From: Pegea sp. RAD2-039
Taxonomy: Eukaryota; Chordata; Thaliacea; Salpida; Salpidae
DNA: 64,000 nucleotides
Direction: 5' to 3'
Assembly (NCBI GenBank): GCA_034620365.1
Contig: JAQGEQ010000048.1
Span: forward strand, 868,001-932,000
The notes beneath the pieces are model-generated. The model saw only the letters and a program-made list of their open reading frames with translations, did no database searches and was not told the DNA's origin. The position numbers and the translations under genes are program-made. Shown here piece after piece: positions 10,048 through 31,564 of the stretch; the stretch's first letter is position 1; each line of letters begins with the position of its first letter.

Positions 10048-12429
10048 TTAAAGAGCTTTATCATCAGAATGATGTTGGGTAGATGTAGAAGCTTCATCAG
10101 ATGATTTGATCTTGCCACATGAAACGATCTTATCATCATCCAATTGATAACATTTACTCTCGAATCGATCTTCAAGTTGCGAATTTTTCGATTCTTTTTT
10201 AACAACTTTTTTCTCCGCCATCTTTTTTGTGTAACTTTTAGGAGTTGGTAAACGAGATTTGAAAGATGTTGGAAGAGTAGCTTTAGACTTGTGATGAGCT
10301 TTATTGAGATCAGACGGCTGACTTGATGGTAATTTATTCTTCCAAACAATATTGAGTCTTTTACATTCATCGGATTTGTAGTGACTCCGATAATTGGAAG
10401 GTTGAAGTAAAATGCTTCGTGTTTGTTGTTCATCTATGAATGTTGAATCACTCGTAGATTCCATTTCAGCCACTGACTGTAAATTAGAAGAAAACTTTCT
10501 AAAACAATCATCAGTAACATCAAGATTAGATCGAAGAAAAGTTGTAGCGATTGAAGAAGACTGCAGTGAGCTTTGAGATGAATTCTCTTGAAAACTATCC
10601 TCATCTTTCCAACCAGTAGTTTCAGCTTGTGTCTTTTCAACAGTATATGTTTTATTCAGCAAGTTGTCACTCATATCTTCAGTACTGATTGATTGATCAA
10701 GTGAACCCCTGTTACAAGTTGTTGTATCATCACTAACATCTTCTGATTTATCAAATCTTTTATCGGATATCAACTCTCTACTGCTGCATGCGGTTGATTC
10801 ATCAAGAGTAGTTTCAGTGGCAAACGGAGTCCAAAGACTTGATTGAATCCAAGATGACTGAGAAGTTGAAGATGAAAAAGGATTCTGCTCAAAATCTGCT
10901 GATGAATAAATCGGATTCATGCCTTGCTCAATTTGTAAGATCAAATCCGACATTTCATCGGAAGTAAAACAATCCAAGGAAGCTTCAGATTTACACGAAA
11001 GATCAGCTTGTGGAGGTTGAGAGGAGACTGCAGTAAAGTATTCTGTTGAGGCATCATGTTCCATCATCTCTTTCGAAGACTTTTCTAATGATTCTTCTTG
11101 ATCCCAATTTGTTTGTTGAGACGCATCATGTGAAGTAGGTCCTGAGATGACGGATTCTTCGATTAGATTTGAGCTTAATTCAATCTTATTTTGATCATCA
11201 CACACTTCTGATGTCTCTTCAGCAGATACTTCAACTGATGTAAGGACTTTTGTTGATGTAGATGCGTCAGTTGTGATCTTGCCAACAACTTTTGGTAGCT
11301 GATAACCACAAGATTGTGTCGGTAAATTGGGATTGGATTTATTGGAGCTGTCATCAAATAATTTGCAACTATTTTCATATGAAGATAGAAATTCTGGTTG
11401 CTGTTGCATAGTTGATCGAAACTGGTTGGAGTTGGAATCATACAAAGCATCTAACGAAGAGTTCATCAACACGCCACTATAATCTGTGTAATAATCATCA
11501 TTCAACAGATCTTCATCATTTTTCTCTTCATGGACTCTAGTTGATGTTGAAATATTTTTATAAAAACCTTCTTGGTTACTATCATCAAATCGAGTTTTCG
11601 TCTCGTTGCTACAACACCCATCTTTCTTCTCCTGAAATTCATTTTCTTCTGTATCTTCAAAATTGCTCTTTTTGTTTTTGGTAAACAATTTTTGGAAAAA
11701 ATTAAATTTCTTTTTCATCTCAGCTTGAGCAGATGGTCTTAGATATTCATCGGATTCTGTTGATTCTGAGTTTTCTTCTGATTCAGATGAATCCAAGCTT
11801 TGATGAGATGTTAGTCTTCGTTGTGAGAATTCTCTTGAAGTTTCTTGTTTCATGCATTCTTCTGAACTAGATTGTTGGCAACATTGATGTGATGCTGGTT
11901 CTTGTAAGCAACCATCTGATGCTGGTTCCTGTAAGCAACCATCTGATGCTGGTTCTTGTAAGCAACCATCTGATGCTGGTTCTTGTAAGCAACCATCTGA
12001 TGCTGGTTCCTGTAAGCAACCATCTGATGCTGGTTCTTGTAAGCAACCATCTGATGCTGGTTCTTGTAAGCAACCATCTGATGATGGTTCTTGTAAGCAA
12101 TCATCTGACGATGGTTCTTGTAAGCAACAATCCGATGCTGGTTCTTGTAAACAACCATCTGATGATGGTTCTTGTAAGCAGCAATCTGATGATGGAAGAT
12201 GGTGCAAACATTCATTCGCAATTGTTTGATGTTGTAAGTATTGTTCTTCGACAGTTGGTTCAACAAATTCTGCTGATAATCGATTATTTTCCAAATTTTC
12301 ATTTACATCATCATCAAGTCGAACTTTAATGGCTTCTTTAACATCTTTCAAACGTCTTTTGTACTCCATCTTCTTTTCAATCCGATGTCTTCGCTGGTCA
12401 ATATCAAATTGATGGTAGAAATCGTCGAC
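10048..12429 (-). other. Terminal exon of the giant gene: coiled basic stub plus ~790-residue acidic Ser/Glu/Asp-rich cytoplasmic tail
   Basis: The exon opens in phase 0 directly after TM5 with a charged segment (FDIDQRRHRIEKKMEYKRRL) like the linker that precedes TM6 in polycystin-1, but no further membrane segment follows. The rest is low-complexity: a CLQEP repeat block, SSESEENSESTESDEY, many Ser/Thr/Asp/Glu/Gln-rich stretches, then a basic C-terminal region with LPTPKSYTKKMAEKKVVKK and a terminal DDKAL. It looks intrinsically disordered and phosphorylatable. No known domain is recognised. The frame is open over 2.3 kb, which AT-rich non-coding DNA would not sustain. Confidence 0.75.
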
Positions 12430-15400
12430 CTAGAAATAAAAATCAACTCTCAAAACCAAATTAGCAAAAATTTGAAAGGTTTTATCAAAAAACGTTAAAA
12501 TAATATTATGAGAAAAAGTATGAGTCACGTCACTCACTAGTGGTTTGTATTTAGAGGTACTAACAAATGATAAGTCGACCAGCAACATCACAAGAAACGC
12601 CTCAAATAAAGGTGCAAACAACAAAGCGACAAAAAATGAAATAATTGTTGACCGAATGAGATATCTAGAATAGCAAAAGTTCAAACTGATCACAACTACC
12701 CACTACACGTATTTACATGGCTTGAATTCCGTATCTGTTGGTGTCAATGATTCCAAAACAAGCAAATCCAATCAAGATGTTGTAAACGCAAAGAGCCACG
12801 TATAAGTTGACCAACACACGAGAATAAATTCCCTGAAATTGGGACATAAATGGCTCTTCAACGATCCCATACGCTAGAGGTGTGGTTGGAGCAGCCTGTT
12901 AGATGAGATGTTTGTTTGAAAACTGAAAATAACTGACAAGTTCCTATAACCTGGTTACAAGGTTCTAAAAAGAGATTTGCGCTGATATTATCAAAACTGT
13001 AATTGTCAGATGGAGCTTGCGATATAGAAGAAAATGAGGATTTAGTGTTTGTGATGGAATCAGAAATTGTAAACGAATCATCATCGTAATCAATCAAGAA
13101 GGGATCCACTTTAGATGGTCCTCCGACTTCGATCCCGTGACTATATTTGGCTTTTGAACGATAAATTTTTGCCTTTGAAGAAGGTTCGGGAATTTCTGAA
13201 CAAATTTCAGATAATTACTGAAATGTAAATTATCTCAAATTTTTTACGAGGTTTAGAAGTTGAAGGAGCTTCTACAGGATCTTCACAAACTCCTCGACTA
13301 AAACCAGGGATTTTTTCATCTTCATCGCAATATGGATCAATTTTTGGTTTATAAGTAGCTGGTTCGCTTAATGTCGTCCGCAACCAATTCCAATTTTTCA
13401 AACGGTCATTTGTCCAAGTTATCTTCACAAACAATCACAAGATAAAAATGATTTTAAACAAATGATACTTACCAAATCAGTAAAGCGAGGAAAAATATTG
13501 ATGTTAGCAGGAGCTTTACATTCAACTTTATCTAAAAAGTCTCGATTACAAACTGACAAATTTCTAACTAAATAAATTACCTCTAGAACCTTTAACAAGC
13601 AGCTGATACAAACGCATGGGTACACGATGCCTCATCAATTTAAACCCCTAATCATGAAAGACATCATCAACAACAACATCTATTCATACTTGAACAACTA
13701 CCTGATGTTCACGACGTTCTACGACTTTTCTATTTATTCTCACAAACAGTAACCTCCAAAGGAAGATTGTGAGAGATCCAATCAAAGTTGCTACAAAGAT
13801 ACAGACATTCGAACGATCTGTTGTGTGTCTACTCAATGTAACAACTGGGTCTCCATTCTTATCAGACCAAGCAACCACCATGATGTGTAGACAGGCCGTG
13901 AAAAACATTGTAGTGTTGCAAGCTGCAACTAAGATAAGGAAGCGTTGGACACAAGTAAGATGATTGTGAGAGTCTGCAGAAGATGTTTGTTAGATGATGT
14001 AGATGAAGATGAACTTACATTTGATGTATTTTGGATGAGCAAAAGATGTGATGATTGTGAGGATCAATGAAGAGATCACTGGATGCTACAAAAGTGAAGA
14101 TTAAATCTGATCTTGATGGAGTGAGTCTCTTACCGCTGTGGGAAAAGATCGAAGTTGATGCTTGATGCGAAGAGCAAATGTAGATCGTTTGAGGAACATG
14201 AAAGGATCAGGAAGAGATGGTTTACGTGCATCCCAAACCCTTCCAGATAACAATGTTTCAACTTTCAGTACATCCCTGATAAAGAAGAGTTTCAAATGAT
14301 GAATGGATGTTGAGAACAAACCATTTGTAGAGTAACGGAGGTGTATCAATCAGATCAAACTTGTGTATTTGGCCACTAGTTGGCGCCACAGCACACTGAA
14401 TCGTGATCTCAGATTTAGGCTCTTTGAGGAGCGGGACTCCAATCAAGACTCGTTTGCGAGATTTCAAAAAAGGTAGACAATGGCTTCTCAACCAGATCAG
14501 GGGTCCCAGTTCCTCTCCATCTGACATGATTCTGATCAGAACGTCCATCGGCATACTAGGAACAAATGAGATGATGTAAATGATCAGAGGAAGACACACT
14601 AACATAGGATATGATCCAGTAGTAAGCTTGATTAAGCAAGGGACCCCAGATTTCTTGGGTCCTACCCAATGTATAATTTCTTCCTGTGATGAAGATGTTA
14701 GTGAGGATCAAATGATGATTCAGAGATGACCTTGAAGCGTTTGTGATCAGTTAAGATCACAAATGGGAGGAAGAATGATGAAGTGATGACGAAGATCAGT
14801 AACAAGTAGTTGAAGAGTCGTGATGAGTAAACCTACAAGTAGAAGATGATCTTAGTGATGAGGGATCACTGAGATGTGAACCTTCATCCAGGAAGCTTTT
14901 GCGGCATAAATCTCAACTTCATAGATAATCGGAGGAGAGTTGAAGACGAAGAGGAGGATTGTAACAGGTTTAGCTGAAGACCAAGTGATGAACATATTAT
15001 TGATCCTTCGGATAACACTTGAATCAATCACAACACTTGCATCCGGAGGTCGGATCTGTAAGATCACTTATAAGATCTCAAATCATGATCATGTGACTAA
15101 AACAGACCACAGATAAGCTAGAGTCGAAGTACCCCAGGTTGATGGGTTCAAGGGTCTTATCATGTGACGTCGCGACAATACTAAACTCAACTTTAGGACT
15201 TATGATCAATCTGATCTGCTTCAACAAATGATGTCTTCCTAGATGAAGTTCAAACTACAAGCACAAGTGAGTGACGTCATCGGAATCGCGAACACGTGAC
15301 TCACTTTCCAGTACATAGCTAAAGGATCAGGTTTCCAAGCAGTAGCTTCAAGTCCATCAAACATCAGATGAAGTTCAGATGAAGTTCGACCGCTCCTAAT

Positions 15401-18400
15401 CTTCCTGAAGAACTTCTCATGCTCTCCTACATCACTAAACTCATATTTCAATCTTCATTTTCATCACCTACTTTTATTGAATGATGTAGTGACGTCACGA
15501 AGAGTCTCGCTAAATGAAAAGTTCGAGTTGTTTTCGACGAATGAGACACGTTCGATGAAGTGATTGATGGAAATCGCGCCGCCGACGCCGTAATGTTGAT
15601 ACAATTCACATTGACGTCGTAATTTGATATACTTTAAATACTGGTCGCTATGGGCCACTTTACTAGTGATATATGGTCCATGAAAGTGGCTAGTGTCCAC
15701 TAAATACGATTGGTGACGAATGGGCAGATACTTGCAGTCGAGACGTTCAAGTAATTTTCGTAAAGTTCGTTTCAACACGATACTAAATCGTGAGTCGAGA
15801 AGCGCGTGTGACAATTCTAACCCAAAATCTTCTGATTTGTTTTGTTTGCTGTCCAGGGCACTTTCCACCCAGTTTTCAAGTTCCAATCCTTTTCCAGGAC
15901 CACCCACATTGTATCTTGTCAAATCCAGTTGCAGTCGATGCGGCGTTTCGAGCGCTATTAACTCCTCAGCGCCACCCTGCGGTAGTTTTGTTAAAAGGGA
16001 TTCAGGAACAAGCTACTCACTTGAGTGGATCGAAGAAAAGCGTTTCGAGATTCGAGATCTTTCGCAAAAACATCACTACATCGAAACTGACTGATGTCAC
16101 GTGACCACCGACCCAGCTTACTGCACGTGATGGTGACGTCACGTGATGTAGTGACAAGCCACTTGTTTTGTGATTGGACGAAACTAGAAATCCAACGAAG
16201 CGGATCACATTCAAACCGAATCCTAGAATTATCAGCCAATTAGACGAGGGCCTCATTAATTGGACAGATTTACTTAGAATTGACCAGTAGAGGCGGTCCA
16301 ATATACACTTGTTTGGCAAAATGGACTCGGCCAGGATCTTGGCATTGAGCAGGGACACATGTGATCAGATGAAGAGGAGGATAAAAAAAAGAAGAAGATG
16401 AACATCTCGTGATTACTTTGCTTCTTTCGCTGTTCATCCAGTGACCCTGGTACAAGTGGTCATGAGTCAATCAGACATGCCCACCTCTGTTTGTGGCACT
16501 CTTACTGGTTTGCAAGATACTTTGACCATCTCCCCATGGGTGTAAAGTGACCCAGAAGTCCCATTCAACGGAGTGATGTGGCTGTTCAGGGGCATTTTGT
16601 CAAAACGACATTTTAGAGTGACACACTACGAGCGAAGAAGATGAGTGGGGCGCGCGTGGTTACCATGACAACCTCACTTTAATGTCGCGCAGTTGATGTG
16701 ACCACGTGGCATCTTCTTGACACTTCAACGTCATCTTTGTCATTCCAATCGCGATCATGTAGCCGCGAGCGCACTCAAGCGTCACGGAATCATTGAAACG
16801 GAACGTTGAGTTTCCGGTCAGCTGTAGCAGTTGAAGAGGAAAGGTCAGGGGATAGTGGTCAGCAGATGACGTACTTGTGCGTGAGGTGGCGGGGCTCCTA
16901 ACGATGGACAGATGATCGGGAGGCATTTGATCGTATCGAGAGGTGGTTGCCAGTTGCCATGGCTACGACAAATCGCGTTGGGAGTCTTACTGATCAGTTG
17001 GAAGCCTGGTGAGCAAGTGAAGGTGATGGTGGTGGTTATCGGGAATCGAATTCCAGGATAAGCGGAAGTGATTGAGAGCACGATCGCAATCGCGTCATCT
17101 ATTTCCGGTTCAGGACATCGCGCGGGAAGACACTGCAAAAGCAGAAGTTGGAATCGAGTGAGACGAGGTTGATGAGGTGACCTTGACTTCCGGAACCCAA
17201 TGACCGTCCTGGTCACAAACTTGTATGACGGAAGTGTCCGGGAACCCAATATAGTAAGAAGGAAGACAGGTGAACTGATGATAAGAAGATGAGGAGCAGT
17301 TGATCATGAGAGATGAGATGTCACCTGTGCAGTGGAACCCATGTTGACTGTTGATTAATGAGTCCAGATAGCGTTGGAGTGGTCATAAGTTGATGGACAG
17401 GTGGTTGGAACGCAATTGAGTGATTTTGATGGATATGTCCATCTTCCATCTTCGTCACATCTACAAAAGAGCCGTGAAAGTGATGATGAGGAAAAGAGGG
17501 GCAAGGAGACCTGGAAACCACTTTTCTTCGATTGTAGGTCGAAATAAAGGTTCCAAGAGGACATTCGTAGGTGACAGTGGAATTGTAAAGTGGTTGGGAC
17601 AATGGATGAGACCTCTGGACACTTGCCCCGCTATTGTACAAGTTGTCGAAGTCAGGAAAAACCTCACATGTCACTGGTACACATTTAAGTTGAAATGGGG
17701 ACGGGTCCCAACCATCTGGACGACAAACTAGTTGCTTCTGTCGACTCTATGGATGTGGAAGGTTTAGTGATTTGAAAAGAATGGTTGATGAGATGGTTAC
17801 TTTGATGGTTCCTTCATTAAACCAGCTTCCTGGTTGGCATTTGTAAGTAAGAATTTGAACAAAATATGAATTGAGTTGGTCATCAACAAGTATAGTGTTT
17901 GGAATGGTTGGTGGTGGTCCACAATACACTGGTACACACTGGTCAGTTGGTTCACTATACTTGCCATCATGAGTACATTGAATAGTGAAAATATTTGAAC
18001 CAGTACTTGTGAAGAAACCTGAAAACACGCGATTAACCATCCATCTATATTCAGCAAATATTTTCTAATTCACCTCTTTCACATTCATATATCCAATCTT
18101 GATGGTATTGTAAACTTCCATACTCAGCAGTGACATGTTTGTAATCTGGTGAAGGATTCCCACTACAAGTGATATTTACACAACGAACCACATTTTCAGG
18201 CATTGGTGACCAAAAAGAGTTTTCCTGGACCAACCATTAGTGACCAAATAACGCGAGAAACATCAACTAACCATACAATCGATGTATACTTCAGTGGTGA
18301 TGTCAACACCATCAGAATCTAATCGTTTGCCTCGTACACATGTATACTTGGCCCTAGCCCCAAAAGTTGTGGACTCATAGGCCACAATTGACCCTTTCGA

Positions 18401-21400
18401 CTTTGGTGGAATTCCACAATCGACTTCTATAAAAGAAGAAGTGGAAAAGAAGTGGAAAGAGGAAGTGGAAAGGGATGTTACCTGTACAAGTGAAATCATA
18501 TAAAGGATTTGGTTCCCAAACTCCATCAACATCACATCTCGCTATCGCCTCCCACTTGCCACTAAACCTGATGAATAGAGATTAGTTGAAAGTGGAAACA
18601 TTGATGAGATGAACAAACCAGAAGCCTGGCTTGCAGATGTATTTGGCCAGGGAACCATACAATGTAGATATAAATGTGAGAGACGCATGCCGGATGTTCG
18701 GGGGGATTCCACAATCTCGTAAACTACAACTAGTCACCTGTGGGGCCGGCCAACTGCCCGACCGAAAGTATTTTGATGACGTCATTGATGATGTCATCAA
18801 CACACTCACTTGCCATCAATGCATTTGAGAGTAAAAGTGTCCTCGCCCATGATTGGGGCAGACTGGACCTGATGACCAGGATCACATTTGTATTCAGCTA
18901 CTGGGACCCCTAATCGACTAAAGACCTGGACAGAAGACTTGGCCACCTAAAGAAAGAAGCTGGTCATTAACTTTCCTGAACCACAATCTGTGGGACTGAC
19001 TAGTGGTAGAGGTGGACAAGGAACTGGTTTGCAGATGATATTCAATGGGCTAGGTACAAAGTCTCCTGATGACGTACAAGTCGCGCGAATTTCTTTCTCG
19101 CCATTTTCAAACCAGTAGTTGGCAGAGCAAGTGAAAATGATGATGGTGCTGATGACAAGATAGTTAGTCCCATGTCATTGTGGGACAAGTGGTACCCTGA
19201 CTGCCACGAAACTTCAATTTGAGGACCGATGTCAATACTGTCAAGCTGGGCCACAAGTCCATCGCCTAAAAGACCAATACCAGGGTTAGGACAAGATATG
19301 TGATTACAAAATAGTGTTAAGGGGTCTGGACGCCATGTGTCGTATCGGTCACATCTGATAATTACTTCGATGACACCAGGACTAAACCAGTAACCTGCAA
19401 AAATGGTTTGTACACTAGATGGTAGCAGATACCCACAAATCACCTTCGTTACACTTGTAAGTCACTTCTTCACCTACAATGTAACGTTTAGGAAGTTTGC
19501 GGTGTGAATTGAGAGGTTGAAAAGGTTCATCACAAGTCATTTCAGCATCATTAACACATTGTACATCAGTTGGTTGCCATTTCAGATCATTTGAACATGT
19601 AGATATCCACGTTTTCACACCTCTTCGTTTACTCTTACCCTGTTGAGTTGTTGATTCAACGTGACAGTTACAGATAGATTTCAGCAACCTTCTGACAATG
19701 ATAAGTGATTGTGGAACCAACTGAAGTTGTTAAATCATCTTTCACAATCGCTCCTCTTATGTAAGGAGCCTCATCACATTCTCTTTTGCCACAAATACCA
19801 TCTTGAAACACTTGATGAGTGAGATACAGATGAAGATCAAACTCACCGATTCGCGACGGTTCCCACTTTGCATCAGAGCCACATGTGAGGAAGATCAGTT
19901 TTTGAGGAGTTTTATCCGACTTGCAAGTGACCTCTACACGTGACTTGTAGCTTCGTTTATTAGAACTGATTTGTAAATATCTTGGAATAGTAGGGCAGGT
20001 AAGAGGGACACATTTTAACTGCAAGTTTTCAAACAATTTGGATGGAAAATTGTTCTTTTTAAAAGATTTACTTTTAAAGGATTAGGATTCCATCGGCTAG
20101 TGACGTCACATCGAAGTATGAACTGGGTGGCGTTGAAATGTTCAAACCATAAACCTTTCAAGCATTTGTACTTCAACTAAGAAATAGATATGAGATCACG
20201 TGATATAAATCGGGGGACTGGGGACTCACTGCAGATCCAGGGACGTGAATTCCGTTGCTGTCATTAATAAACCCAACAACTTTAGCAAATTTGATTTGGG
20301 GCAAAACAGGGCAACTGATCGCTTTACAGGGTCTTAATGAGCTGATCTTAGGATACCATCTTCCGTTAGAGAGACATTTTACAACTTGCTGAAAATCGAT
20401 AACAACGAAATTTATTTTCAAATCAATATTCAAACTTTGTCACCTGATTATCATCTATTTGAACGGTTCTATATCCTTTTTTACAGGAATATTTGATACT
20501 ACTTCCAATTAGCCACGAATTATTGACATTAGTTCCAGACAGAACAGTTTGAATTGTATTTGAAAGACTAGCAGGATATAAACAGGAGATACTTGAACAC
20601 ATGAAGTTTGATGGATTTGGTTGAAATTTGCCTGAAGCTTTACATTTTAGAAAAACTTTCAACAGATTTGATGATAGTTTAAATCCTTTTTTGCAAGATA
20701 AAGTAGCTTCTTCACCAACATTTGAAAAATCTATCAAATGAAAATTGAAGAAGATCAACTGATAGATATTTCATCAACTAACTTCTCGTGGAAGCGCTAA
20801 ACACGATCATTGCATTTGAATCTAAAGAAGGAGATGAACAAGTGATTTGTTTACAAAAAATATCGTAAGGTGACGGACTCCATGTTGCGTTCACATTACA
20901 TTCGATATAAGATGGTCCGATCAAGTGGTAGCCAGGATTACAAGTGTACTTGGCCCGTGAACCATAAGAATACCTGTAGAACATCAGACGTGGTCACAGG
21001 CTTTTTGGTCCAGACAATCTCACCCATTAGTTGTCATGATTGCATTTGAAACGCTTGGTGGCGCTCCAGGACAGTGGACAAGTCGACATATAGTTGCGGA
21101 TAAGTCTGGATACCACTGATTGTCACGTGCACATGTACAAGTGGTATTTGTTGAACCATCGCTCATCACGTGACCAGCTAAACACGTGACTTGTACAATT
21201 GAACCAGGGTAGGTAGAAGAACCTAACAAAAGTTTAGCTACAAATTCAACTTCTCATCATTTATTACCTGATATCACTGCATTTGGGTTTTTAGTTGCAA
21301 ATGTACCTAAACTTGAACATTCTGTCAATATACAAGCTTTAGTGTGAGGGTTAGGTGTCCAAGACCCATCTGGTCCACAAGTTATAAGTAGATTGGACAT

Positions 21401-24400
21401 TTGAGTGCCTGATATTACACGGTTGAATGAGCATTGAAATAAAATCTAATGAAGAAATGAGATCAATTTGAAGATGAAGTTGATCTTTATCATCTTACGC
21501 GGCTCCCAACAGGGAACAGATCATGTGAGGGTTTGTTGACGATATGAGCGAATCTGATCTCGACTCGAGGCTTCTTACAATAAACAGAAACACAATTTGG
21601 TCGTGGTTTCCAAATTCCTTCCTTTCCACATGAAATTGTCATTCTCCACTGTTTGTATCCAAACCAAAAGTTCTCGGCACACTTGAGGGCTCTCTGTCAA
21701 ATCAGTCGGGTCACAACCACCTCACCGGACCACACAAGACCACTACCTTAGCGCCATAATGACTCCTGATGTGGCTCCCAACGTATGAAACTGATCTAGG
21801 GAGGACAGGATCTTTTTGACAAGTCACAGGTCCACACTTCATGTCGTTTACTGATAATGACCAATTCCCTGATTTAGTACAATAGATGGTCTTCACCATT
21901 TGCTGGTCACTAAACCAGCTACCATCCTTACATTTAATGGTTGTTGATGACATATAAACACGTTTTGAATCTACAAATAATTCATCAGAAATGAACCAAC
22001 CAATCAGCATCAACCTTCAATAATCTTTGCATTTGTTAATCGACGAAGCCAAGGACATCGTATTTGAGAACATTGAAAAGAATTCAAATTTGGTTCCCAG
22101 AAACCAGACGACAAACATTTAAGTAGTTTAGGAAAAGTCTTCGGAGTTGGTAAAGTTCCAATTCTACATTTGACTTGAAATGTGGAATCGATTGTTTGTT
22201 CGATTAACCATTTATCAATTGGAATATGACCTACAAATCAAATACATCATCATCTACATCAATTAAATCCATCTAATTCTTACTTCCATTTCCAAACCGA
22301 CCACCAAAGAATTGCAAACCACTTGAGTTTGTGAGAGGTGGACAGAATATTTGGTGGCAAGCAAGTAGACTAGAAGGAGGGTACCAATGACCAGTTGGTG
22401 AGCAAGTCCTCGATACGGTGGTAATGTGAAGTTGATGTGAACAAATCTCTGCAAACAATTTAATCCACAATTGTTCCCACCTCATTACAAACTCACTTGT
22501 CCCCCCTTCCACATTCCATTCTGATAAATGGTTTTGATGATAAACTGATAAAACTGGTCTCATATTAAATGGATCGAAAGTCAACACAGGAAACTTAGAT
22601 AAGATGTTAGCTGTATTCAAGCTAACTAACAACGAAGCTGAGTGGCTTCCAACACATTCCCATATCTATCATAGACTTTCAGATGTTTGATGGTTTCATG
22701 GAAAGCACCAACCTGTCTCTTGTTTGTATCTACAACTGAACAAAACTTCATCCCGACTTCTACTGGTGAAGTTGAACGGATTACATCTTCTACATCAAAG
22801 CTGGACGTCAGGCAGTTCCCATCTTCTATATTTTGCAACAAGCGAGTGTTCTTTGGATGCCAACGCCACAGAATTCGAGATGTTTTTGTTCCTTGGCAAC
22901 GATCTCCATTAGATACAAAGATCACGTGTGCAAGTGGATCAACTTCAAGACACTTTTGACTTCCCGCCACAAAAATCCTGAACAAACTGAAGTGAGAAGA
23001 GAAGATGACAGAAGAAGATGAAGTACTTGAAGAAGGGAGTCGTGTGAAAGCCAAGTGGACATGTGGTCTCGACCACCGCTGTCACAAAAGCAGTGCTGGT
23101 ATCAGACAGCTTGGACGGATGTCTGTTTTCCATTTTGTATGAAGTAGATTGAGCGAGATGAGGAAGAGGACATGCTTTGAGGGCACAAGTGATTGTTGAT
23201 ACATCCGGATGCCATCTACAATTAATTTTGTGGAATCAATTCCAACGAGAGATCGAACAAACCTTCCTGATCTGGTACAAACGGCGCTGATTGGTTGACT
23301 GATAATTTCACTTCTGTTCATCAACGTTTCATTTTGCTCACATCCAATCAAAATCACTTGTTGTAATCTGCGGGGGAAAGTGAGACGAAAATATCTTGAA
23401 GATGATTCTTACCCGATGCCAGTAGAAGAGATGATGTTGGGGACTAATGGGCAATGTTGATCGATGCATCGAAGAGGGGTTAGGGGAGGAAACCAAAAAG
23501 CGTGCGAGTTGCAAACATGAACACTTCTGCTGAAGATTCCATTTCGATTTTGAATCTTCAGTCCATTCAAGCATCTAGATCAGCGGTAATCACGTGATTG
23601 GAATCTTTGTGAAGAGATTCAGACCTGTATGTGATTCGGTTACCGATCCGGAAGATGTTCCCCATCAGCATCAAGTTATCGCCCACTGAAGGGGCTGGGC
23701 ACGAAGCAATTTGGCAGTGGGCCACAGGTGGTTGCCAACCCTTGGTCGTGCATACACTCTGTTGTGATTTCATCTTCAGTTTGATCTCATCTCATAACCT
23801 TGGAAGCAATGGACGTGGATCAGGGTTCCAAGCTCAACTTCGGTGGAATTCTGAATCAACAAAAGTTTAGTTTGAGAGAAGTTAATCTGACAAGTCGGAT
23901 ACCGAAGGTAGTTGGAAGGGTTCAGCGTAAATAGGATCTAAAGGTCGGTGACATGAGCTTGATGAACATCGAAGATATCTGAATAAAGATCAAGATGGAT
24001 TAAATCTTCATCCAATCATTTAAGATCTACTTGGGATTAGTGCTCCATTCTCCATTAAGCTGACAGAAATTTTTAATTGATGTTGCTCCACCAGCGACAT
24101 GGAATCCGAAATCACATCGATAAGTTACTGATGATCCAACCTCGTATAAGAAGTTAGATGAAGATTCTGATACTGAAAACTGATGAAGAAGGATGAAGGA
24201 TCAGATGATCGAAAAATTGGAAGAACAAACTTGATAAGGTGGGGAGGATGTGGTCTTCAAACCAGCCCTTGGTCGTTCTAATTGACCATTTTCAATTTGT
24301 TCTGGGACAGAGGGACACGATATAAGAGCCAATTTGGCGCACACTAGCTGATTAGAGACTTGATTACAAGGAGATTCTAAAACTGTTTGATGGGATCGAA

Positions 24401-27400
24401 GTTAGATGATGATGTAGAAATGAAGAAGATTAACCTTCACTTGTAGATGTAGTCGAGTTGAAAGATTTCTTCATGAAAACGATACAACGAGATTCATTAA
24501 AATGTGATGGTCTTAGTAAAGAATGACAAATATCATCACCAGTAAAAAGGGATTCCTTTTCTGATAAATAGAAATATTTGATGAAAGAATCAGAGGAATT
24601 ATTGAAATACGAACTATAAAATTTGGTTGTGTGCAATTTGGAAGCATTTGAAGTTGTTATAGGAGCTAGTCCTGTGGAAGGTGGTGAAAATGCAAGATAA
24701 CCAAGAGTAGGAGAGATTAACGAGTGATTATAACAATCCCATTTTTGTAGATCTTCATCAAGATCACAATCTTCCACCTGAAGATGTCCTTCTGGATTTG
24801 CTGAAAGATTTTTGAATTGAATTTTCACTGAATTAGATGAAGATGAAACCTTGCAAACACTTGTGATTAGAAACATGTAAAATATGATTAGGAGTAATCC
24901 ATCGAAAGAGAAAGTCATCATTAAATTCATTCCCTTGACAGTTTTGTACCTTTAAAAGTGATTTGATGAAACTATCAGTAATTTAGAAGATGAATTAATA
25001 CTTACAATTGGTTTATTAGATAGAACAGAAAGGCAGTAAATAAAGCCAAGTTTTGAAATATGAAAATTTGCAGATTTATAGTGAAAATCTGGAATTAATA
25101 GATTTCCGCTTATCATAGATCTAAGAACAAATCATTTCATCCATGTGATAAGAAACCACAAATATTTCTACCGATATTTAGTTCCTTGTTTACTGAAATC
25201 TAAAAAGTGCTGATCACGTGACTTCAACCAAACGTCAGCTACATTCAGACGGAAGTTCGAAATATTTACTTCATGCATCATTGACCTGACATCAGGCAAC
25301 AAAGTGTCTTCTACAGGGAACAGATCATATCCAAGAGGACATCTTGGTGATGTGTCTTGGATAATCTGCAAAGATGTTGATCACAAACTTGATCTTTGTT
25401 GAGAAGATGTGATCTTACAGCTAAACACCACTGAGTGACTTCTGAATATAGAATCGATGAGTCACGTGATCTTTCACATGAAGGTTGACAGGAAATTTCA
25501 CTCAAATTTCGAATTTGATTCTTATTCATGTTCATATATTGACTTGGAAGCCAATCAGTAGACCAGACATCAACACCTACACAAGTAAAATCGATTTCTC
25601 TTCTTCCTAACCCGAAATAATATCCTGATCCACATCTAAACACTTTTTCTGATGGTTTGTTCATCAATGAATCATCACTCACTAACCTGTACGTTACACT
25701 TCTATTAAATTCGATAAAATGAAGGAAAGAAGAATGTTTAGCGTTTTGAACTGAAGAACCATCAAGACCACAAACAATTGGGTCACAAGTTGGATGTTTA
25801 CCAGTCCAATGACCCTTTGTATGAACAAAAAGAGTTTCAAGTTGATATTTTGCAAACTAATCAACTGATTATCTTACATTTAAACATTTCAAATCGAAAT
25901 CTTTCAACGGAGATGATCTAACACTTCCAAAAGAGCAATCATATTCTACTTCACAACCATGTGAGAAACCTCCAGTTGCTACTGAGTGACGAACACTCAC
26001 AATTGACCCTCTAAAAATTAAAAATTAAAAGTTACAGAAGAGATTTAGAACTAATCGGGGTCACTTGTATATTTCAGGAGGTTTTGAGCAGAATGTTGGA
26101 CAACTTCTGATGTGGCTACAATATTCTTTTTTATTTAACTTCACCCAGCACCATGCTCCGTTGACGTCAGAGTTTGGATTACGACAGTAACTGTTGTTAG
26201 GTGAGGAAGTCCCAATTCTTACAAAACAGTTTAAAGGAAATTTGTGGCAACTTCTAAGTAAAAACTGGTCAAATACTGACCTGGTCAAGTGGACAGTGAT
26301 GTCCCTATACAGCCAGTTCAAACATGATTCACCTGTCCAAGCATTTGAAACTGTCCCATTATAATCTAGTCCAATTCCATGTACACATTCAATAGGAGCC
26401 TCACATATGTAAGGTCTTTGGACAAGACCACCTGTTAGTACCCATCCAGTTTGGACTTGTAAATATGTACCAGCGTTTTCAGCACATGCTGGTATATGAC
26501 ATGTGTCTGTTTGGTTCAAATGGTCCATGACAAAACACCATGGTTGTCCAGGACTGCTTCGCCAACTAAATGGGTTTCTGGAAAAACTTACTTCAGAAAA
26601 AGCAACAAATTCAACAACAATAAAATCTGACCGACAAAAAGGTCCTTCATTAGATGGATGTAGATGAGGATGAGGATATTGAGATCTCCATGCTTGACAT
26701 TGAAAACCTTTTGATGTATATGATCTCAATCCTTCATAACTTTTCTGATTCTTCTTCCAACAATCACTGATGGTTGAAATGAGTCCAAATCCCCCTAAAA
26801 ACCAGTTGTTTCATCAAAACTGAAATATTTCTGACATAAAATCCTCACCTGCATCATTTAAAGCTCTCCATCGTGAATATTGTGTCTTTATCATTCCAAC
26901 TACATTTTTACGAGCTCTTAAACTAACAAATCCTTCATTCAACTCAAAAGCTGAGATTCCAACATAATCCAAACCAATCATCAAGCTACTGTCCAGGGCA
27001 CTTATAATTTTAGTGGCAAATTGTCCATTCTTTAATCTAAACATCTGATTTCTACAACAAATTTGAATTGAAATATTTCCAGAGTTGCAACTAACTGAAA
27101 ATCACTCGACCTTTGATTTCCACGACAAGTATCTGACACTAATCGACCACCAACAACAGACAGACAACATGTAACTGGTCCTGAACCTACAACTTGTAAG
27201 GTGGTACCTTGTCCATCCCAACTGAACCAAGTTAAACCTTCGTGGTCACATTGAGAGATAGTGACCTCTTGTCTGTGGCATTTCATTCCTGCAGATAATT
27301 AGAAGATGTCTGAAAGAAGAGGAGGGCATCTGGTACTGACCAATCACAGTAAGACACAAGTCACTTAAAGCATAGTTGACAATTTGAAACATTTTTTTAT

Positions 27401-30400
27401 GATCGTTCAAACGGACAAGATTGTGGACCACCAGTGTCGTGTTGCTGTCCTCAACCACACAAACCCCTACCATGTCTGAAACCAACAGTTGAAGATATTA
27501 ACTTAAAAGCCTGGTCACTTACCAGAAGCCAAATGGTTACTAGGACACAAGTTGTGGGTCAGGCGTAACCATGGAAACAATACTGGTGAGTAAGTATGAG
27601 ATTGGACTCCATTTAGTTCTAAAATAATTGATTCTGATAATGATTGAAGAACAGGAAAGGATCTGACCGATGCGGACCGCGTTCCACTTTTGTCGGTCAT
27701 TTATTGCGTCACAATCTCGCAACACGATCCTTTCATATTCCGTGGAAGATCTTAAAGTGATGTTGATCTCCAAACAACAAATAAACTCTCGATTGAGAAG
27801 ATGTGAGGTCCACAATTGACTCCAACGCTGAGATGGTTTGTCCACATCACATGGCAGCAATGTGGGAGAGAACCTGCCCAACTACAACCGCTACTTGTGG
27901 GTCTATTTCAACTTTGACAAGTCCAAACAGACCTTCTCCTCTTGATACACGTCAAGACATATGTCCGACTCGACATCTCGTAGTTGGAACCATAAACCAC
28001 TTTCATCTCTCCACTTATTTAATTGCATCTTACCAATATAATGAGATTGAGCAAACCACTCTAGCAAGGAAGCGTCTCGAAGCGACGCGTCTACATCTGT
28101 CACTGTCAGTTCCATTCCGCTATCAACTGTAATTCAATTGCTTCAAAATCGAATCACATGACAGCGTTGAACTGACTCGAAGTAATCGATTCGTCTCCTA
28201 GCAACCATTTCATAGATGTCTTCTTAAGATCACAAGCTTCACTTTTTACTGATCTCATAATCCCGCTGAATTTATTTAATATTTTATATTAAATTTGAAA
28301 ATTGTTGAAATTAAACTGAGAAGAATCAGTAGAAGTCCTTACACTGAAGTTTTTCGAGTTTCAACATTTAAACATTTTCTACTTTCAACATTCATTAACA
28401 TAGAAGCTGAAAATATCCACAGATTACTTCGTCTACTTGAATGAATCTCACAAGAAGACAGGATCAAGTTCTACAAGTTATTTCTTGTTATTAACTTTTC
28501 ACAACTTTTCAATTTAACAACAAAAATACAGAAAATTGTCAAAACGTTTTTTAGAAAAATATAAAAAGTTTTACATTTGATGTAGTCAAAAGATGAAGAC
28601 ACTTTCTTCCATCGATGCTTTGAATACGCATTTGTGACAAGGTGCCTTGTGGCCATCCTGTTTGAAGTTGATCAATAGTTTTATGAAAGAAACAGATCAA
28701 CAAATCACCTCTTGCTAAATCAGTCGAAATATTATGCCAGATTCTTAATTGTAAGTTTCCAACAGAAGAGTTGTCAATTTCAAACTTTAAAGAGTTCATA
28801 TCTCCATTAATTATCTGTTCATTTCATCAACTTGTTGTTAGTTACAATAAAATGACGAAAAAACTTACATCAAAACCAACTCCAATATAAGCATTACTGA
28901 GACCAGCAGAAATTATCATATCTGTCAGAATCTGATGAGTTGAAGCAGTTTTATCTGATGCTAAAGTCGCTCCGATCAAATTATCGTGATCTTTCAATGA
29001 GTGACATCTACTGCGAGCCTCAGATAATGTTTGAACAGTTTTGAAGAGCTTGTAACAGGTCCAAGCTACAAGTGTAAGGTAGAAAGTGTGAAGTAGGATT
29101 AGTTTGTTGAGTTGGGATGATTTACCTCCAGATAAAGTTGTTGCATCAAAACCTGGAGGACATAAAGGAAGGCAAAGAGCAGAAGAGCATTTTTGAATCT
29201 CTTCTTCATTCCCATCACATGATCCTTGTCCGACAGAGCCATTTAAACAAGATCTTCTTCGCTTGCTGATTCCAAATCCAGGTGATTTACAAGTTAAAGA
29301 ACATGAAGACCATTTTCCTACATTTGAAGCTCAGTTGACAATTTTCAAATTTTTAACTATTTGTAGAAAAAAGAAGTTGGATTGAAATAAAAACAAACCC
29401 CAGTTGCTCCACCGAGCTATTTGCTGCGCAAGAGACTGCTTCGACTCATAAGTTTGCCAATGATACGTCTCCTTCTGTTGAAGATTCAAAATTCCAGAGA
29501 CAAAGTCAATTGAAACGTATCTAAATCAAAATTTATCAGAAAGATTAAGAAAAAAATCAGTTTAATTTCGACAACTTTTTCACTAATGATTGATGATGCA
29601 ATGATCGCAGTCCTCCTGAAGATGTGACTTCCCAAAACTGCTCAGAGTTACTAATATTACATGCTTTCAAACCAATCGCTGCATTCTGCTGCTGTAGATT
29701 TATTTGCAGAAAATTATTGGAAAGTTTTTTTTAAGATTAATTAATTTTGTAAAATTTTCTTTAATATTTTAAAGTAAAGAAACAAGAAATAAATCACAAA
29801 AATTTCTGTATCAGCAACTTTAGTTAAAAAACAAAACATTTAAACACGAAATCATCGCACCTTATTTTCAATGATTAATGAGAGGCATGCTGAAGAAGCA
29901 ATATTGACTAAATTGTATTTTCCTAACCATTTCCAGAAAAAATTTTCATTAAAAGGAACATCAGTAGAAGCACAATGCCACGTTAGATAGACTTGGCCAT
30001 TAGAATGAGAATACCAACAATTGCCATTACTTGTGTTTGTCAAAGAAATTTGAAACACTAAAAAGAAAGAAATAGATTTTCAACAAATTGTAAATATTAT
30101 TTAAAAAAAATTAAACATTTTACAAAACCCATAAAATTCAGATTAAAAAAGGTTCTAACAGTTCTATTTGATTAGAAACTTAATCTTTTATTTTGCACTT
30201 AAGTATTTAGCTTGAAGCAAAAATCTTTCAAAATTGTCAAAACTTGATAAAACTTAATCTACCACCGAAATTTCATGAAAAATTTGTTTTAAAAAGTCCT
30301 CAACTGATTAAAAATATGTTACGGTAAAGACATGCGTGAATAAATGCTAATTATTTTGATTATAACTTGAGGGTCTATCTTATAAATATTTATCACTAGT

Positions 30401-31564
30401 TTAATTCACAACATACTAAAAACTTAACATTAAAAAGTTGTTATAAAAAGACTTTCTTAAAAACTGAGAAATCGTTGAATAGAAAGTAATTGTAAAATTA
30501 TGGCTTAAAGTTTCAATCTCTACTAAAATTAGATCAATAAAAGTCGAAATATTTTTGGTTGTCTGCAGGGAAAAATTCCTGACAGAAACTAGTTTACCAA
30601 CCGTTTGTTGGACCTCCGCCAAGTTTACAATTCAATTCGTCCATAAAATCTGGACAATCTGCAAAACCATCACAAATTTTGCTTCTATCCATACAGTGTT
30701 GTGGATTTGGTCCTATACCAGGACATTGAAATTTGTTTTGGGGACAGTTTCTCTGTCAAGGTTTGTCACAAAACATTTAATTTTTTTTTACTTTTTCTAT
30801 AAAGCTAATTTAAAGTCGTTTTTGGTTGTAAAAGAAAATATTTGAAATTGTAAAATTTGATTTAATTGTTTTATTGACGTATGTTTCATAAGCTCAAATT
30901 ATGTCCAAGTATTAAATTAAAAAAATTATTTACATGTTGAAGTTCAAGTGGATTGCACATCGTTTTAATGCAATTTTGAGAACTTGTAGATAGTCCAGGA
31001 CACCCTTCTTCATTGAGACACAAACGCATTCTAACTCTTCTACCTGGAGTACCACATTTAGGAACAATACAACTACTCCAACCACTCCACTTTCCCCAGC
31101 CAACATCTACAATTATTGTTTTCAAAATTTTCAAATTAATATTTTTTCCACTAAAAACGGTAAAATTTAATTTGTAGTTAATACTTAGAACTAAATAATT
31201 ATTTCAAAATGTCAATTGTTTAGTAGTACTAATACAAAATTTCAAAACATTTTATTACTTTGAATAATAACTTTATTGCAAAAAAAAAAATACAAACATA
31301 CCGCATAATTTACAAGATTTTTTACAATTATAAGACGCAGTTAGAGATATATTGCATAAACCATTTGCCACAATTGCGGTGCAATCATGTTCTTTGTCCT
31401 TACATAAATTGGCTGAAAAGTTTCGTTATCATGTTGTTATTTTATATGTAGTATATGGAATAAATAATATTTAAATTTTAATAAAAGTTTGAAAAATGTT
31501 GAGTAATTTCACCTGAAATTGGTGAAACTATTGACAAGAGTAGATATACTACAAATGAAATCAT
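10048..31564 (-). CDS. Giant mosaic receptor of the polycystin-1 family: lectin/kringle/sushi ectodomain + PLAT + membrane segments, no channel module
   Basis: I read this as one gene. Resolved N-terminal exons: 31513-31564, 31302-31412, 30934-31106, 30602-30752. Resolved C-terminal exons: 16021-16222, 15472-15976, 15305-15426, 15111-15254, 14882-15055, 14731-14832, 14604-14683, 14361-14555, 14134-14275, 14019-14085, 13702-13973, 13581-13647, 13473-13552, 13248-13422, 12951-13195, 12717-12895, 12538-12664, 10048-12429. All of these join in phase. Order encoded: signal peptide, ShK-type, TSP1, LDLa, CysR/ricin repeats, TSP1, C-type lectin-like, more CysR repeats, two kringles, sushi domains interrupted by CysR repeats, juxtamembrane region, TM1, PLAT, TM2-TM5, long acidic tail. 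TM1-PLAT-TM2 in this order is specific to polycystin-1 relatives, which are surface receptors, often ciliary. The usual C-terminal six-pass cation-channel module is missing. The many middle exons (16.2-30.6 kb) were identified by domain, not fully joined. An annotation pipeline may split it into several models. Confidence 0.7.
11885..12195 (-). repeat. 27-bp coding minisatellite, 11 units of CLQEP(A/S)SDG
   Basis: Eleven head-to-tail 27-nt units encode a nine-residue Cys-Leu-Gln-Glu-Pro repeat; six consecutive units are identical in protein sequence. Because the unit is a multiple of three, other frames on both strands stay open too and produce spurious repetitive ORFs. The outer units (SSDC, ASDC, SSDD) are diverged and the inner ones homogeneous, as expected from recent expansion by slippage or unequal exchange. 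Each unit contributes one cysteine within an otherwise cytoplasmic-looking tail. Confidence 0.9.
12538..14832 (-). other. Polycystin-1-type membrane module: TM1, PLAT, TM2-TM5
   Basis: TM1 is in 14731-14832 (LFNYLLLIFVITSSFFLPFV). PLAT runs over 14604-14683, 14361-14555 and 14134-14275: CLIKLTTGSYPIMPMDVLI, DGEELGPLIWL, SEITIQCAVAPTSG, DVLKVETLLSGRVWDARK. These line up without gaps with the PLAT pattern TG...DADV.I.L.G..GESGPL...L.I......W.L..V.V.D...G. A linker (KYIKYSHNHLTCVQRFLI) corresponds to polycystin-1 SRFTRVQRATCC, then TM2 and TM3 lie in 13702-13973. A large acidic cytosolic loop follows (12951-13647), then TM4 in 12717-12895 (VLVNLYVALCVYNILIGFAC) and TM5 in 12538-12664 (STIISFFVALLFAPLFEAFL). 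This matches TM1-TM5 of polycystin-1. No GPS cleavage motif of standard form is evident; the nearest (TSLTCACSLNF, 15240-15280) falls in an intron by my model. Confidence 0.75.
14882..15976 (-). other. Juxtamembrane region of the giant gene (GAIN-like position, family unclear)
   Basis: Four exons (15472-15976, 15305-15426, 15111-15254, 14882-15055) encode about 315 residues between the last sushi domain and TM1. In polycystins and adhesion GPCRs this position holds the GAIN domain. Recognisable fragments are YNVGGPGKGLELENWVESAL, FSIVLKRTLRKLLERLDCKY and KPVTILLFVFNSPPIIYEVE. Amphipathic helices come first and beta-like hydrophobic strands later, as in GAIN, but I see no conserved Cys-W-Cys GPS triad. 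The low 3' border of 15111-15254 is uncertain by a few bases. Confidence 0.45.
15427..15471 (-). other. 45-nt intron in the giant gene
   Basis: The donor GTAGGT follows the codon block ending FNK, and the acceptor GATGTAG precedes GAGAGCATGAG. Removing these 45 bases eliminates three in-frame TGA codons and restores a single frame on both sides. Confidence 0.65.
15977..16020 (-). other. 44-nt intron in the giant gene, between the last sushi domain and the juxtamembrane region
   Basis: The donor CAA|GTGAGT and the acceptor CCGCAG|GGT are both phase 0. This junction is what links the sushi array to the polycystin-type membrane part, so it is the key splice for the one-gene model. Confidence 0.65.
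16021..24400 (-). other. Sushi/CCP domain array of the giant gene (about 20-25 modules)
   Basis: A long series of short exons carries the CCP signature (Tyr/Phe-x-Cys-x-x-Gly-Tyr/Phe ... Gly-x-Trp ... Cys). Clear examples: 24025-24165 (SVTYRCDFGFHV, NGEWSTN), 21020-21229 (VQVTCLAGHVM, DNQWYPD), 20778-20984 (AKYTCNPGYHLIGPSYIEC, ATWSPSP), 20423-20758 (ATLSCKKGFKL, GKFQPNP), 19668-20036 (VEVTCKSDKTP, AKWEPS), 18340-18535 (AKYTCVRGKRL), 17460-17674 (VTYECPLGTF, DGRWTYPSKSLNC), 16900-17110 (ITFTCSPGFQL, GNWQPP), 16021-16222 (VTITCSKLGRWSRD). Each module is commonly split by an intron near its middle. Such arrays serve adhesion or complement-type binding outside the cell. Individual exon borders were not all fixed. 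Confidence 0.8.
22626..23054 (-). other. Ricin/CysR-type lectin module inside the sushi array
   Basis: The frame contains QKCLEVDPLAHVIFVSNGDRC, an ILWRWHPKNTRLL block and EDGNCLTSS. This is the CL...C...W.W..L....CL spacing of mannose-receptor-type cysteine-rich (ricin-like) domains. It is set between sushi modules on both sides, so lectin and sushi modules are interleaved rather than in separate blocks. Confidence 0.55.
24430..25110 (-). other. CysR/ricin-type lectin module linking the kringle and sushi blocks
   Basis: Reading through two introns gives FHISKLGFIYCLSVLSNKP (25015-25080), then QNCQGNEFNDDFLFRWITP and ILHVSNHKCLQ (about 24850-24960), then ANPEGHLQVEDCDLDEDLQK (from about 24800) with WDCYN. 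The pattern F.I......CL.V......C......F.W.....L......CLQ......L..C.....QKW is that of the macrophage mannose receptor N-terminal domain. The module is continuous, which argues against a gene boundary here. Confidence 0.65.
25120..26040 (-). other. Sushi-like and unassigned cysteine-rich exons between kringles and CysR module
   Basis: One module (GCEVEYDCSFGSV ... GHWTGKHPTC, 25760-26010) is sushi-like, with a second partial one in 25600-25760. The frame at 25311-25682 (VFRCGSGYYFGLGRREIDF, then SCQPSCERSRDSS and QVCDQHLC) and the one at 25168-25371 (CPLGYDLFPVEDT ... VADVWLKSRDQHFLDFSKQG) are cysteine-containing and secreted in type. I cannot name their family; a C-type lectin-like fold is possible. 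Confidence 0.45.
26060..26770 (-). other. Two kringle domains of the giant gene
   Basis: Kringle 1 (about 26505-26765) reads CWKKNQKSYEGLRSYTSKGF, CQAWRSQYPHPH, then FCR|NP across an intron, then PWCFVMD and CHIPAC. Kringle 2 (about 26085-26400) reads CVHGIGLDYNGTVSNAWTG, SCLNW, YCRNPNSDVNGAWCWV and EYCSHIRSC. Both show the C..G..Y.G..S.T..G..C..W ... CRNP......WC ... C..I..C layout of plasminogen/HGF-type kringles. Kringles usually bind lysine-rich or lipid ligands. I know of no polycystin-family protein with kringles. Confidence 0.8.
26800..28870 (-). other. Run of ricin/CysR-type lectin modules in the giant gene
   Basis: Several frames show the QxW/CL pattern: 28560-28799 (LQLRIWHN ... 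GRKCLHLLTTSN), 27903-28115 (GKMQLNKWRDESGLWFQLRD, then CLDVYQEEKVCLDL), 27540-27881 (LPCDVDKPSQRWSQLW, CCLEI, IVLRDCDAINDRQKWN), 27246-27485 (VCVVEDSNTT, LSDLCLTVIG) and 27040-27286 (ISQCDHEGLTWFSWDGQGT, CCLSVVGGRLVSDTC). The exon at 26814-27044 (MFRLKNGQFATKII ... KTQYSRWRALNDAG) is less clear and may belong to a C-type lectin-like fold. These modules suggest carbohydrate binding outside the cell. Confidence 0.6.
28870..29390 (-). other. Second TSP1 domain followed by a C-type lectin-like domain
   Basis: The TSP1 (about 29180-29330) reads GKWSSCSLTCKSPGFG ... KRRRSC ... GQGSC ... IQKCSSALC. It is directly followed by LCPPGFDATTLSG, and then by AWTCYKLFKTVQTLSEARSR, CHSLKDHDN and GATLASDKTA ... 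YIGVGFD (28885-29070). That is the start of a C-type lectin domain (CYK, EA...C, ATL.S, IG). Polycystin-1 itself also carries a C-type lectin domain, though in a different order. Confidence 0.6.
29400..30066 (-). other. Ricin/CysR-type module between LDLa and the second TSP1
   Basis: The exon at about 29866-30058 encodes VFQISLTNTSNGNCWYSHSN, GQVYLTWHCAS, NFFWKWLGKYN and ACLSLIIENK. After an intron it continues as GLKACNISNSEQFWEVTSSG (29590-29700) and ILNLQQKETYHWQ (29400-29520). The spacing of C, CL and W.W is that of CysR lectins. Confidence 0.5.
30602..31564 (-). other. N-terminal exons of the giant gene: signal peptide, ShK-type domain, TSP1, LDLa
   Basis: 31513-31564 begins with ATG and a hydrophobic leader (MISFVVYLLLSIVSPIS). 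31302-31412 encodes a six-cysteine ShK-type module (CKDKEHDC ... GLCNISL ... CKKSCKLC); ShK-type modules are common in secreted animal proteins and do not by themselves imply a toxin. 30934-31106 is a TSP1 repeat (GKWSGWSSCIVPKCGTPGRR ... EEGCPG ... QNC). 30602-30752 is an LDL-receptor class A repeat (CPQNKFQCPG ... CMDRSKICDGFADCPDFMDE). All four exons join in phase (1, 1, 0). The window shows no upstream minus-strand exon, so this is taken as the gene start. Confidence 0.75.

Follow-up and report, generated by a model that had tools for sequence, protein, structure and literature searches.

A salp locus that appears to encode a giant lectin, kringle and sushi surface protein with polycystin-1-like spacing of its membrane segments

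Can a single animal gene join an ectodomain of lectins, kringles and sushi modules to the first membrane helices of a polycystin-1-type receptor? The question is raised by a minus-strand locus in the window (i.e., the whole 64-kb stretch of Pegea sp. RAD2-039 DNA analysed here), and it was addressed within the window and across the genome, 105.7 Mb in 387 contigs. The apparent product of the locus is a giant protein of the cell surface, with lectins, kringles and many sushi modules outside the cell and a polycystin-1 TM1-5-like spacing in the membrane. In proteins that have both the channel and the first five polycystin-1 helices, it is difficult to tell whether these helices have a role of their own. 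If the reading given here is correct, a pore-less five-helix scaffold with another kind of adhesive ectodomain would set the role of the helices apart from that of the channel, and would offer a natural test of polycystin TM1-5 function without the pore. A paralog without a recognised core would point to an event, either fusion or loss, involving a family of adhesive proteins and the membrane core.

Gene model and frame continuity

A simple splice-aware gene finder (a custom program, not curated software) modelled a single gene on the minus strand from 31564 to 10048, with 76 exons that total 5,108 codons including the stop, and 46 of the 75 introns in this model were 40-60 nt long. The exons, which start with a hydrophobic leader at 31564 and finish with the stop at 10048, were mostly in frame. 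Outside the gene, GC content was 25-29% (64-kb window, 4-kb steps). When an intron-length prior was added, the gene finder returned two genes meeting at 23882/23773, inside a sushi module; this split point is neither of the two junctions singled out by the sequence-only reading that preceded this analysis. As a control, the gene finder was applied to other loci, where it recovered L039 and L040 as polycystin-1-like genes with PLAT, a polycystin domain and a channel; its errors in these controls were a missed PLAT exon in L044 and a split of L040.

The two junctions singled out earlier, at 16.0-16.3 kb and 24.8-25.1 kb, had been expected to be continuous in frame, and the gene parses do run through both. 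None of the gene-finder parses contained a break at 16.0-16.3 kb, and the last sushi exon (16222-16021) was stop-free into the next exon. Forced breaks cost about 19-24 log-score units at 16.3-16.0 kb, about 4 at 15.4 kb and about 2 at 14.8 kb. With cheap starts allowed between 18600 and 9800, the best parse fell into four pieces, one of which (17342-13667) links sushi to TM3. This frame evidence favours continuity at 16.0-16.3 kb and is weak just before TM1.

Two apparent lesions were seen in the frame: a break near 23.78 kb and, when the reading that preserves the sushi modules is followed, an in-frame TAA near 17.36 kb. The alternative introns of the one-gene parse bypass both lesions but break sushi modules. 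The lesions could stem from an error in the assembly, from introns placed wrongly or from real decay, in view of which a single intact gene is treated as a candidate.

Ectodomain modules and a collinear paralog

Within the first piece of the translation, Pfam matched Ricin_B_lectin (9.8e-22, six stretches), Kringle (2e-18, two stretches), CysR_MRC2_N (1.7e-12, four stretches), TSP_1 (1.1e-9, two stretches) and Sushi (1.4e-5, one stretch). The second piece matched Sushi (1.8e-77) in 16 stretches, giving a Pfam total of 17 (Table 1). The lectin, TSP1, kringle and sushi ectodomain proposed from the sequence was thus borne out by matches above cut-off, and the HMM search suggested at that time, with kringle (PF00051) and sushi, recovered both. 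The proposed twenty or more sushi modules were reached by a self-trained profile, which listed 29 stretches (28 at iE<1e-3, several partial); that profile was trained on the array itself, and the independent count is Pfam's 17. Among the smaller modules that had been proposed, ShK passed its cut-off when its region was searched alone and LDLa fell just short, while the C-type lectin-like module found no counterpart in Pfam Lectin_C at E<=1.

Table 1. Features of the candidate gene in window coordinates, listed from N-terminus to C-terminus
Feature	Coordinates	Strand	Evidence
First exon, hydrophobic N-terminus, signal-peptide-like, MISFVVYLLLSIVSPIS	31513..31564	-	Gene parse, sequence
ShK-like module	31302..31412	-	Pfam ShK 1.2e-4, above cut-off, region alone; 0.0047, below cut-off, in long piece
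TSP1-like module 1	30934..31106	-	Weak; TSP1_CFP_C 0.0057, below cut-off
LDLa-like module	30602..30752	-	Pfam Ldl_recept_a 9.5e-5, 23.0 bits against 24.1-bit cut-off, just below
CysR/ricin-B lectin 1	29399..30057	-	CysR_MRC2_N 1.7e-12, best stretch residues 200-297
TSP1 module 2	29126..29317	-	TSP_1 1.1e-9, best stretch residues 305-356
C-type-lectin-like stretch	28575..29065	-	By eye only; no Lectin_C match at E<=1
Ricin-B/CysR lectin modules in series	26849..28470	-	Ricin_B_lectin 9.8e-22; CysR_MRC2_N (counts are for the whole piece)
Kringle 1	26484..26762	-	PF00051 1.2e-8, 41.6 bits, above cut-off (genome search)
Kringle 2	26100..26387	-	PF00051 5.8e-7, 36.2 bits, above cut-off (genome search)
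First post-kringle sushi modules	25419..26090	-	Self-trained profile 5.4e-13 for 26090-25803; second by eye
Ricin-B-like lectin inserted between sushi modules	24435..25365	-	Ricin_B_lectin 1.6e-5, 25.5 bits, below 29-bit cut-off
Sushi modules up to frame break (~23.78 kb)	23779..24376	-	Pfam Sushi 1.4e-5
CysR-like insertion within sushi array	22629..22977	-	CysR_MRC2_N 0.0025, below cut-off
Main sushi array	16078..23773	-	Pfam Sushi 1.8e-77, 16 stretches; self-trained profile 27, of which 26 at iE<1e-3
Junction exon: end of last sushi module, stop-free toward membrane-proximal region	16021..16222	-	Gene parse, sushi profile, codon usage
Membrane-proximal region, ~320 aa, without a match to a known domain or GPS	14882..15976	-	Pfam; coding frame supported by codon usage
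TM1 exon	14731..14832	-	Hydropathy 2.5
TM1-TM2 loop at PLAT position, PLAT unrecognisable	14134..14683	-	Pfam, own-genome profile, splicing tests
LTCVQRF motif, TM2 and TM3	13702..14085	-	Hydropathy, motif scan
TM3-TM4 loop, putatively cytoplasmic	12951..13647	-	Gene parse, hydropathy, codon usage
TM4 and TM5 exons	12538..12895	-	Hydropathy
Last exon, tail ~790 aa, putatively cytoplasmic	10048..12429	-	No further TM; no Pfam domain above cut-off
27-bp tandem repeat in tail, 11.3 copies, coding 9-residue (S/A)SDGCLQEP-type units	11890..12195	-	Repeat analysis

A paralog was found on contig C8 at 1118556-1126834 (loci L054/L055, C8:1118500-1138499). Ricin-B lectins, two kringles, sushi, a lectin and a sushi array follow one another collinearly in both genes, and this is the order by which the lectin-kringle-sushi family is recognised here. 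Residues 922-1478 of the gene studied aligned with residues 154-729 of the paralog, and residues 1672-2849 with residues 1012-2214 (23% identity, 3.3e-49, the best alignment). The paralog carried Sushi, Kringle and Ricin_B_lectin matches, and the counterpart of the C-type-lectin-like stretch reached 0.016 with Lectin_C, below the cut-off. The kringle-to-sushi order that had been read from the window is repeated elsewhere in the genome. This collinearity marks the kringle-sushi-lectin series as a real unit and supports the junction at 24.8-25.1 kb, where the kringles lead on to sushi and lectin. The paralog model ends after a sushi module; the next modelled gene lies about 7.8 kb further on, and the five-TM core had no match in the 11.7 kb downstream. 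Alongside the shared order, the paralog differs from the gene studied in having fewer sushi stretches (17) and no core match downstream.

Among 12 kringle loci scanned (~3.2 kb each), sushi was found in the gene studied (L036), in the C8 paralog (L037) and, weakly, in L032. Outside this genome, the gene studied resembles the mannose-receptor-type CysR lectin receptors in its CysR_MRC2_N-like modules and in the possible C-type-lectin-like stretch. Those receptors are single-pass proteins with tandem C-type lectins, whereas the gene studied has kringles, sushi and five TM segments. In the open-access literature, no report was found that brings together kringle, sushi and the PLAT domain, or polycystin-1, the PLAT domain and kringle, and no relevant report was found of a sushi/kringle/lectin combination.

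DNA fragments of the window between 17.8 and 15.4 kb occurred in at least 24 other contigs, among 60 matches scored, at 65-79% identity; these contigs include C43, C322, C281, C317, C276, C297, C296 and C74. The fragments comprise the last sushi exons and the membrane-proximal region, introns included, and none among the matches listed reached TM1 or beyond. At the protein level, the membrane-proximal query returned three self matches and two degenerate fragments, both of which contain stops, and codon positions in four fragment copies showed no consistent bias, a pattern that speaks neither for nor against the exon model. These scattered sequences look like satellite-like or pseudogene pieces of the gene studied. 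A query covering TM1 and everything after it as far as the tail returned 10 matches in the genome, every one at its own locus.

The membrane core and its kinship with polycystin-1

At a hydropathy threshold of 1.5, five TM segments were predicted, with none in the ~790-residue tail; this count is threshold-dependent because two additional weak segments, shortly before TM1 and shortly before TM2, appear at 1.3. In all 17 exons from 16222 to 12538, the frame chosen was the one preferred by codon usage derived from four further loci of this genome, in a test that is partly circular since stop codons were excluded by construction. The arrangement described by the sequence-only reading (TM1, an interval of ~190 residues, a VQR linker before TM2, and TM2-TM5) was found to be present by hydropathy and motif scan.

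Gaps between TM segments were reckoned from segment positions, with the best window taken where two overlapped. For TM1-2, TM2-3, TM3-4 and TM4-5 respectively, they were 192, 25, 229 and 20 residues in the gene studied; 188, 19, 241 and 24 in L040; 192, 26, 82 and 28 in L039; and 237, 11, 261 and 19 in L041. The TM3-TM4 gap ranges from 82 to 261 across the compared genes and is weak evidence. An FTxxQR-type motif before TM2, which was presumed to be a polycystin-1 feature and then checked on the polycystins of this genome, also recurred: LTCVQRF begins 7 residues before the TM2 window in the gene studied, FTRAQR, FTRMQR and LTRWQR begin 6, 6 and 9 residues before it in the L040, L039 and L041 set, and L044 carries FTRFQR. 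In 20,000 block shuffles, [FL]TxxQR fell within 8 residues of that place 30 times and anywhere 125 times, counts that refer to a motif picked after being seen in the gene. Compared with these three genes, the TM1-TM5 spacing and the FTxxQR-type motif before TM2 were both of the polycystin-1 kind.

The strong PLAT match claimed earlier for the TM1-TM2 loop was not recovered. Pfam found no PLAT there at an E threshold of 10, whether or not the intron was spliced out (HMMER filters discard most matches above 0.1, even at this threshold). A PLAT profile built from 15 sequences of the same genome, one of them (LX6) badly cut, scored -1.8 bits, a value reached by 229 of 1000 shuffles. The same searches recognised PLAT in the controls: Pfam gave 3.3e-13 for L039 and 4.5e-20 for L040, and L041 reached 1.8e-7 in the genome search and 50.7 bits in a leave-one-out run with the own-genome profile. 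A PLAT score below threshold had been named beforehand as evidence against the sequence-only reading, and such a score is what was obtained.

Alternative splicing of the TM1-TM2 stretch was tried as a route to a PLAT domain and rejected, the best score being only -0.8 bits. The three stretches tried gave 541, 290 and 760 chains, all stop-free and with at most four GT-AG introns of 40-60 nt. By the same route the divergent PLAT of L041 scored 49.7 bits with L041 omitted from the profile, and among 54 control stretches the top ten reached 2.5 to 8.6 bits, more than the loop did. A single-sequence AlphaFold (AF2) model of the loop was all-beta except for a short helix, at low confidence (pLDDT 46.5); its input was one contiguous exon stretch that includes ~16 probably intronic residues and lacks the last strand region. 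Compared with the PDB, this model had no match at E<=0.001, the best being RbmA and PI3K chains, and it is given no weight on the question of fold.

Profiles of polycystin TM1-3 (from three genes) and TM4-5 (from four genes) did not match the core better than block shuffles of it, which reached the score in 171 and 357 of 500 cases with hmmsearch and in 36 and 52 of 60 with hhalign, respectively. No GPS was matched by Pfam in the 937-aa core; among the controls, the GPS of L040 scored above the cut-off (3.5e-5) and that of L039 below it (0.021). Neither a REJ domain nor PKD repeats had a Pfam match at E<=1 in the three pieces scanned, and neither a polycystin domain nor the TM6-11 channel had one in the core or tail. 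Inspection by eye of the gene models below 10 kb revealed nothing channel-like, and a PDB sequence search gave no match at E<=10.

Polycystin ancestry of the core accordingly rests on geometry and on [FL]TxxQR before TM2. These are the polycystin-1 features that the core showed; PLAT was not recovered, and neither GPS, REJ nor TM6-11 was found. Judged by the two features, the core is likely to stem from a PKD1-type protein, a derivation that the author's own judgement puts as reasonably probable. Because GPS, REJ and TM6-11 were not found and PLAT is unsupported, membership of the polycystin-1 family is not established by sequence, and the gene is described as probably encoding a channel-less, PLAT-eroded polycystin-1-like receptor, without assignment to the family.

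The gene studied shares with the polycystin-1 (PKD1) family, including the SpREJ proteins and L039, L040, L041 and L044, a large ectodomain of varied make-up, which in some members includes lectins, TM1 followed by a loop of ~190 residues, the TM2-TM5 gaps and [FL]TxxQR before TM2. It differs in having no recognisable PLAT, GPS, REJ, polycystin domain or channel, and in adding kringle and sushi. The lack of REJ or of a channel has precedents in the family: the sea urchin report describes SpREJ proteins with 0, 1, 2, 6 or 11 TM segments, some of which lack the polycystin domain or channel, and notes that hPKD1L3 is likewise without REJ (PMC1934368). The modules given there for SpREJ proteins are C-type lectin, EGF, SUEL, WSC, PKD and REJ, and the words "kringle" and "sushi" do not occur in its main text (PMC1934368). 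Two open-access reports that name both polycystin and sushi domains do not describe a fusion of the two.

Proposed receptor, competing readings and neighboring loci

The favoured explanation, for which the case is evenly balanced, is a single animal gene encoding a multi-pass receptor of ~5,100-5,400 aa with a PKD1-type TM1-5 core and no pore. The ectodomain, with its ricin-type lectins, kringles and more than 20 sushi modules, would bind glycans or proteins, whether in the matrix or on other cells. The core would be a PKD1-type TM1-5 unit that had lost the pore (TM6-11) and GPS and whose PLAT had diverged past recognition. With the pore and GPS lost and PLAT diverged, the receptor would not itself conduct ions; its cytoplasmic loops and tail would pass on a signal set off by adhesion or force, or it would signal as the partner of a channel. 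More tentatively, and at somewhat less than even probability, it may be a polycystin-1-derived receptor that keeps only the TM1-TM5 scaffold and that gained its lectin-kringle-sushi ectodomain by fusion from a second family of the same genome.

That one gene was read correctly but its five-TM core is unrelated to polycystin-1, with spacing and motif matching by chance, is rather doubtful. Such a core would account for the lack of profile similarity to PLAT, TM1-3 or TM4-5 of the polycystin-1-like genes of this genome, and for the GPS, REJ, polycystin and channel domains that were not found, but it leaves to coincidence a TM1-TM2, TM2-TM3 and TM4-TM5 spacing and a placed [FL]TxxQR that agree with those same genes. 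A boundary between two adjacent genes of the same strand, a secreted C8-like lectin-kringle-sushi protein followed by a five-TM protein, is unlikely and would make the short in-frame introns between them a coincidence of the kind that compact genes allow. The cheap forced breaks at 14.8-15.4 kb would suit such a boundary, as would the C8 paralog, which has the same kringle-sushi-lectin-sushi order, ends after sushi and has no core in the 11.7 kb downstream. Against it, the last sushi exon continues stop-free, breaks at 16.0-16.3 kb are costly, and even the cheap-start parse joins sushi to TM3 in 17342-13667.

Decay of the gene, with both the frame break at ~23.78 kb and the TAA at ~17.36 kb (in the sushi-preserving reading) being real and no full protein made, is improbable. 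The neutral-looking fragments of part of the gene that are scattered over many contigs would fit a decaying sequence, yet the frame is otherwise open over ~5,000 codons in ~76 exons, the one-gene parse offers an alternative splicing that is open throughout, and one or two lesions could equally be assembly errors or mis-placed introns.

Elsewhere in the window, gene models presumed from their resemblance include an ARPC5-like gene (2729-2292, minus strand), a PAS/BMAL-type protein (7760-9392, plus strand), two fucosyltransferase-like models (35127-40032, plus strand), a leucine-rich-repeat protein (44610-42050, minus strand) and two claudin-like models (56933-55075 and 60469-59173, minus strand). 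In the rest of the genome, L041 (C1:5925000-5934999), which is polycystin-1-like but strongly diverged and has PLAT, is a useful intermediate; its second gene piece contains further hydrophobic stretches. L045 (C42:340500-350499) contains PLAT domains in a tandem array, which is taken to resemble LOXHD1. Five kringle matches at L027, L028, L030 and L031 (C264:373890-376610) fall in a single 1,709-aa open frame that has no introns, unlike the intron-rich gene studied.
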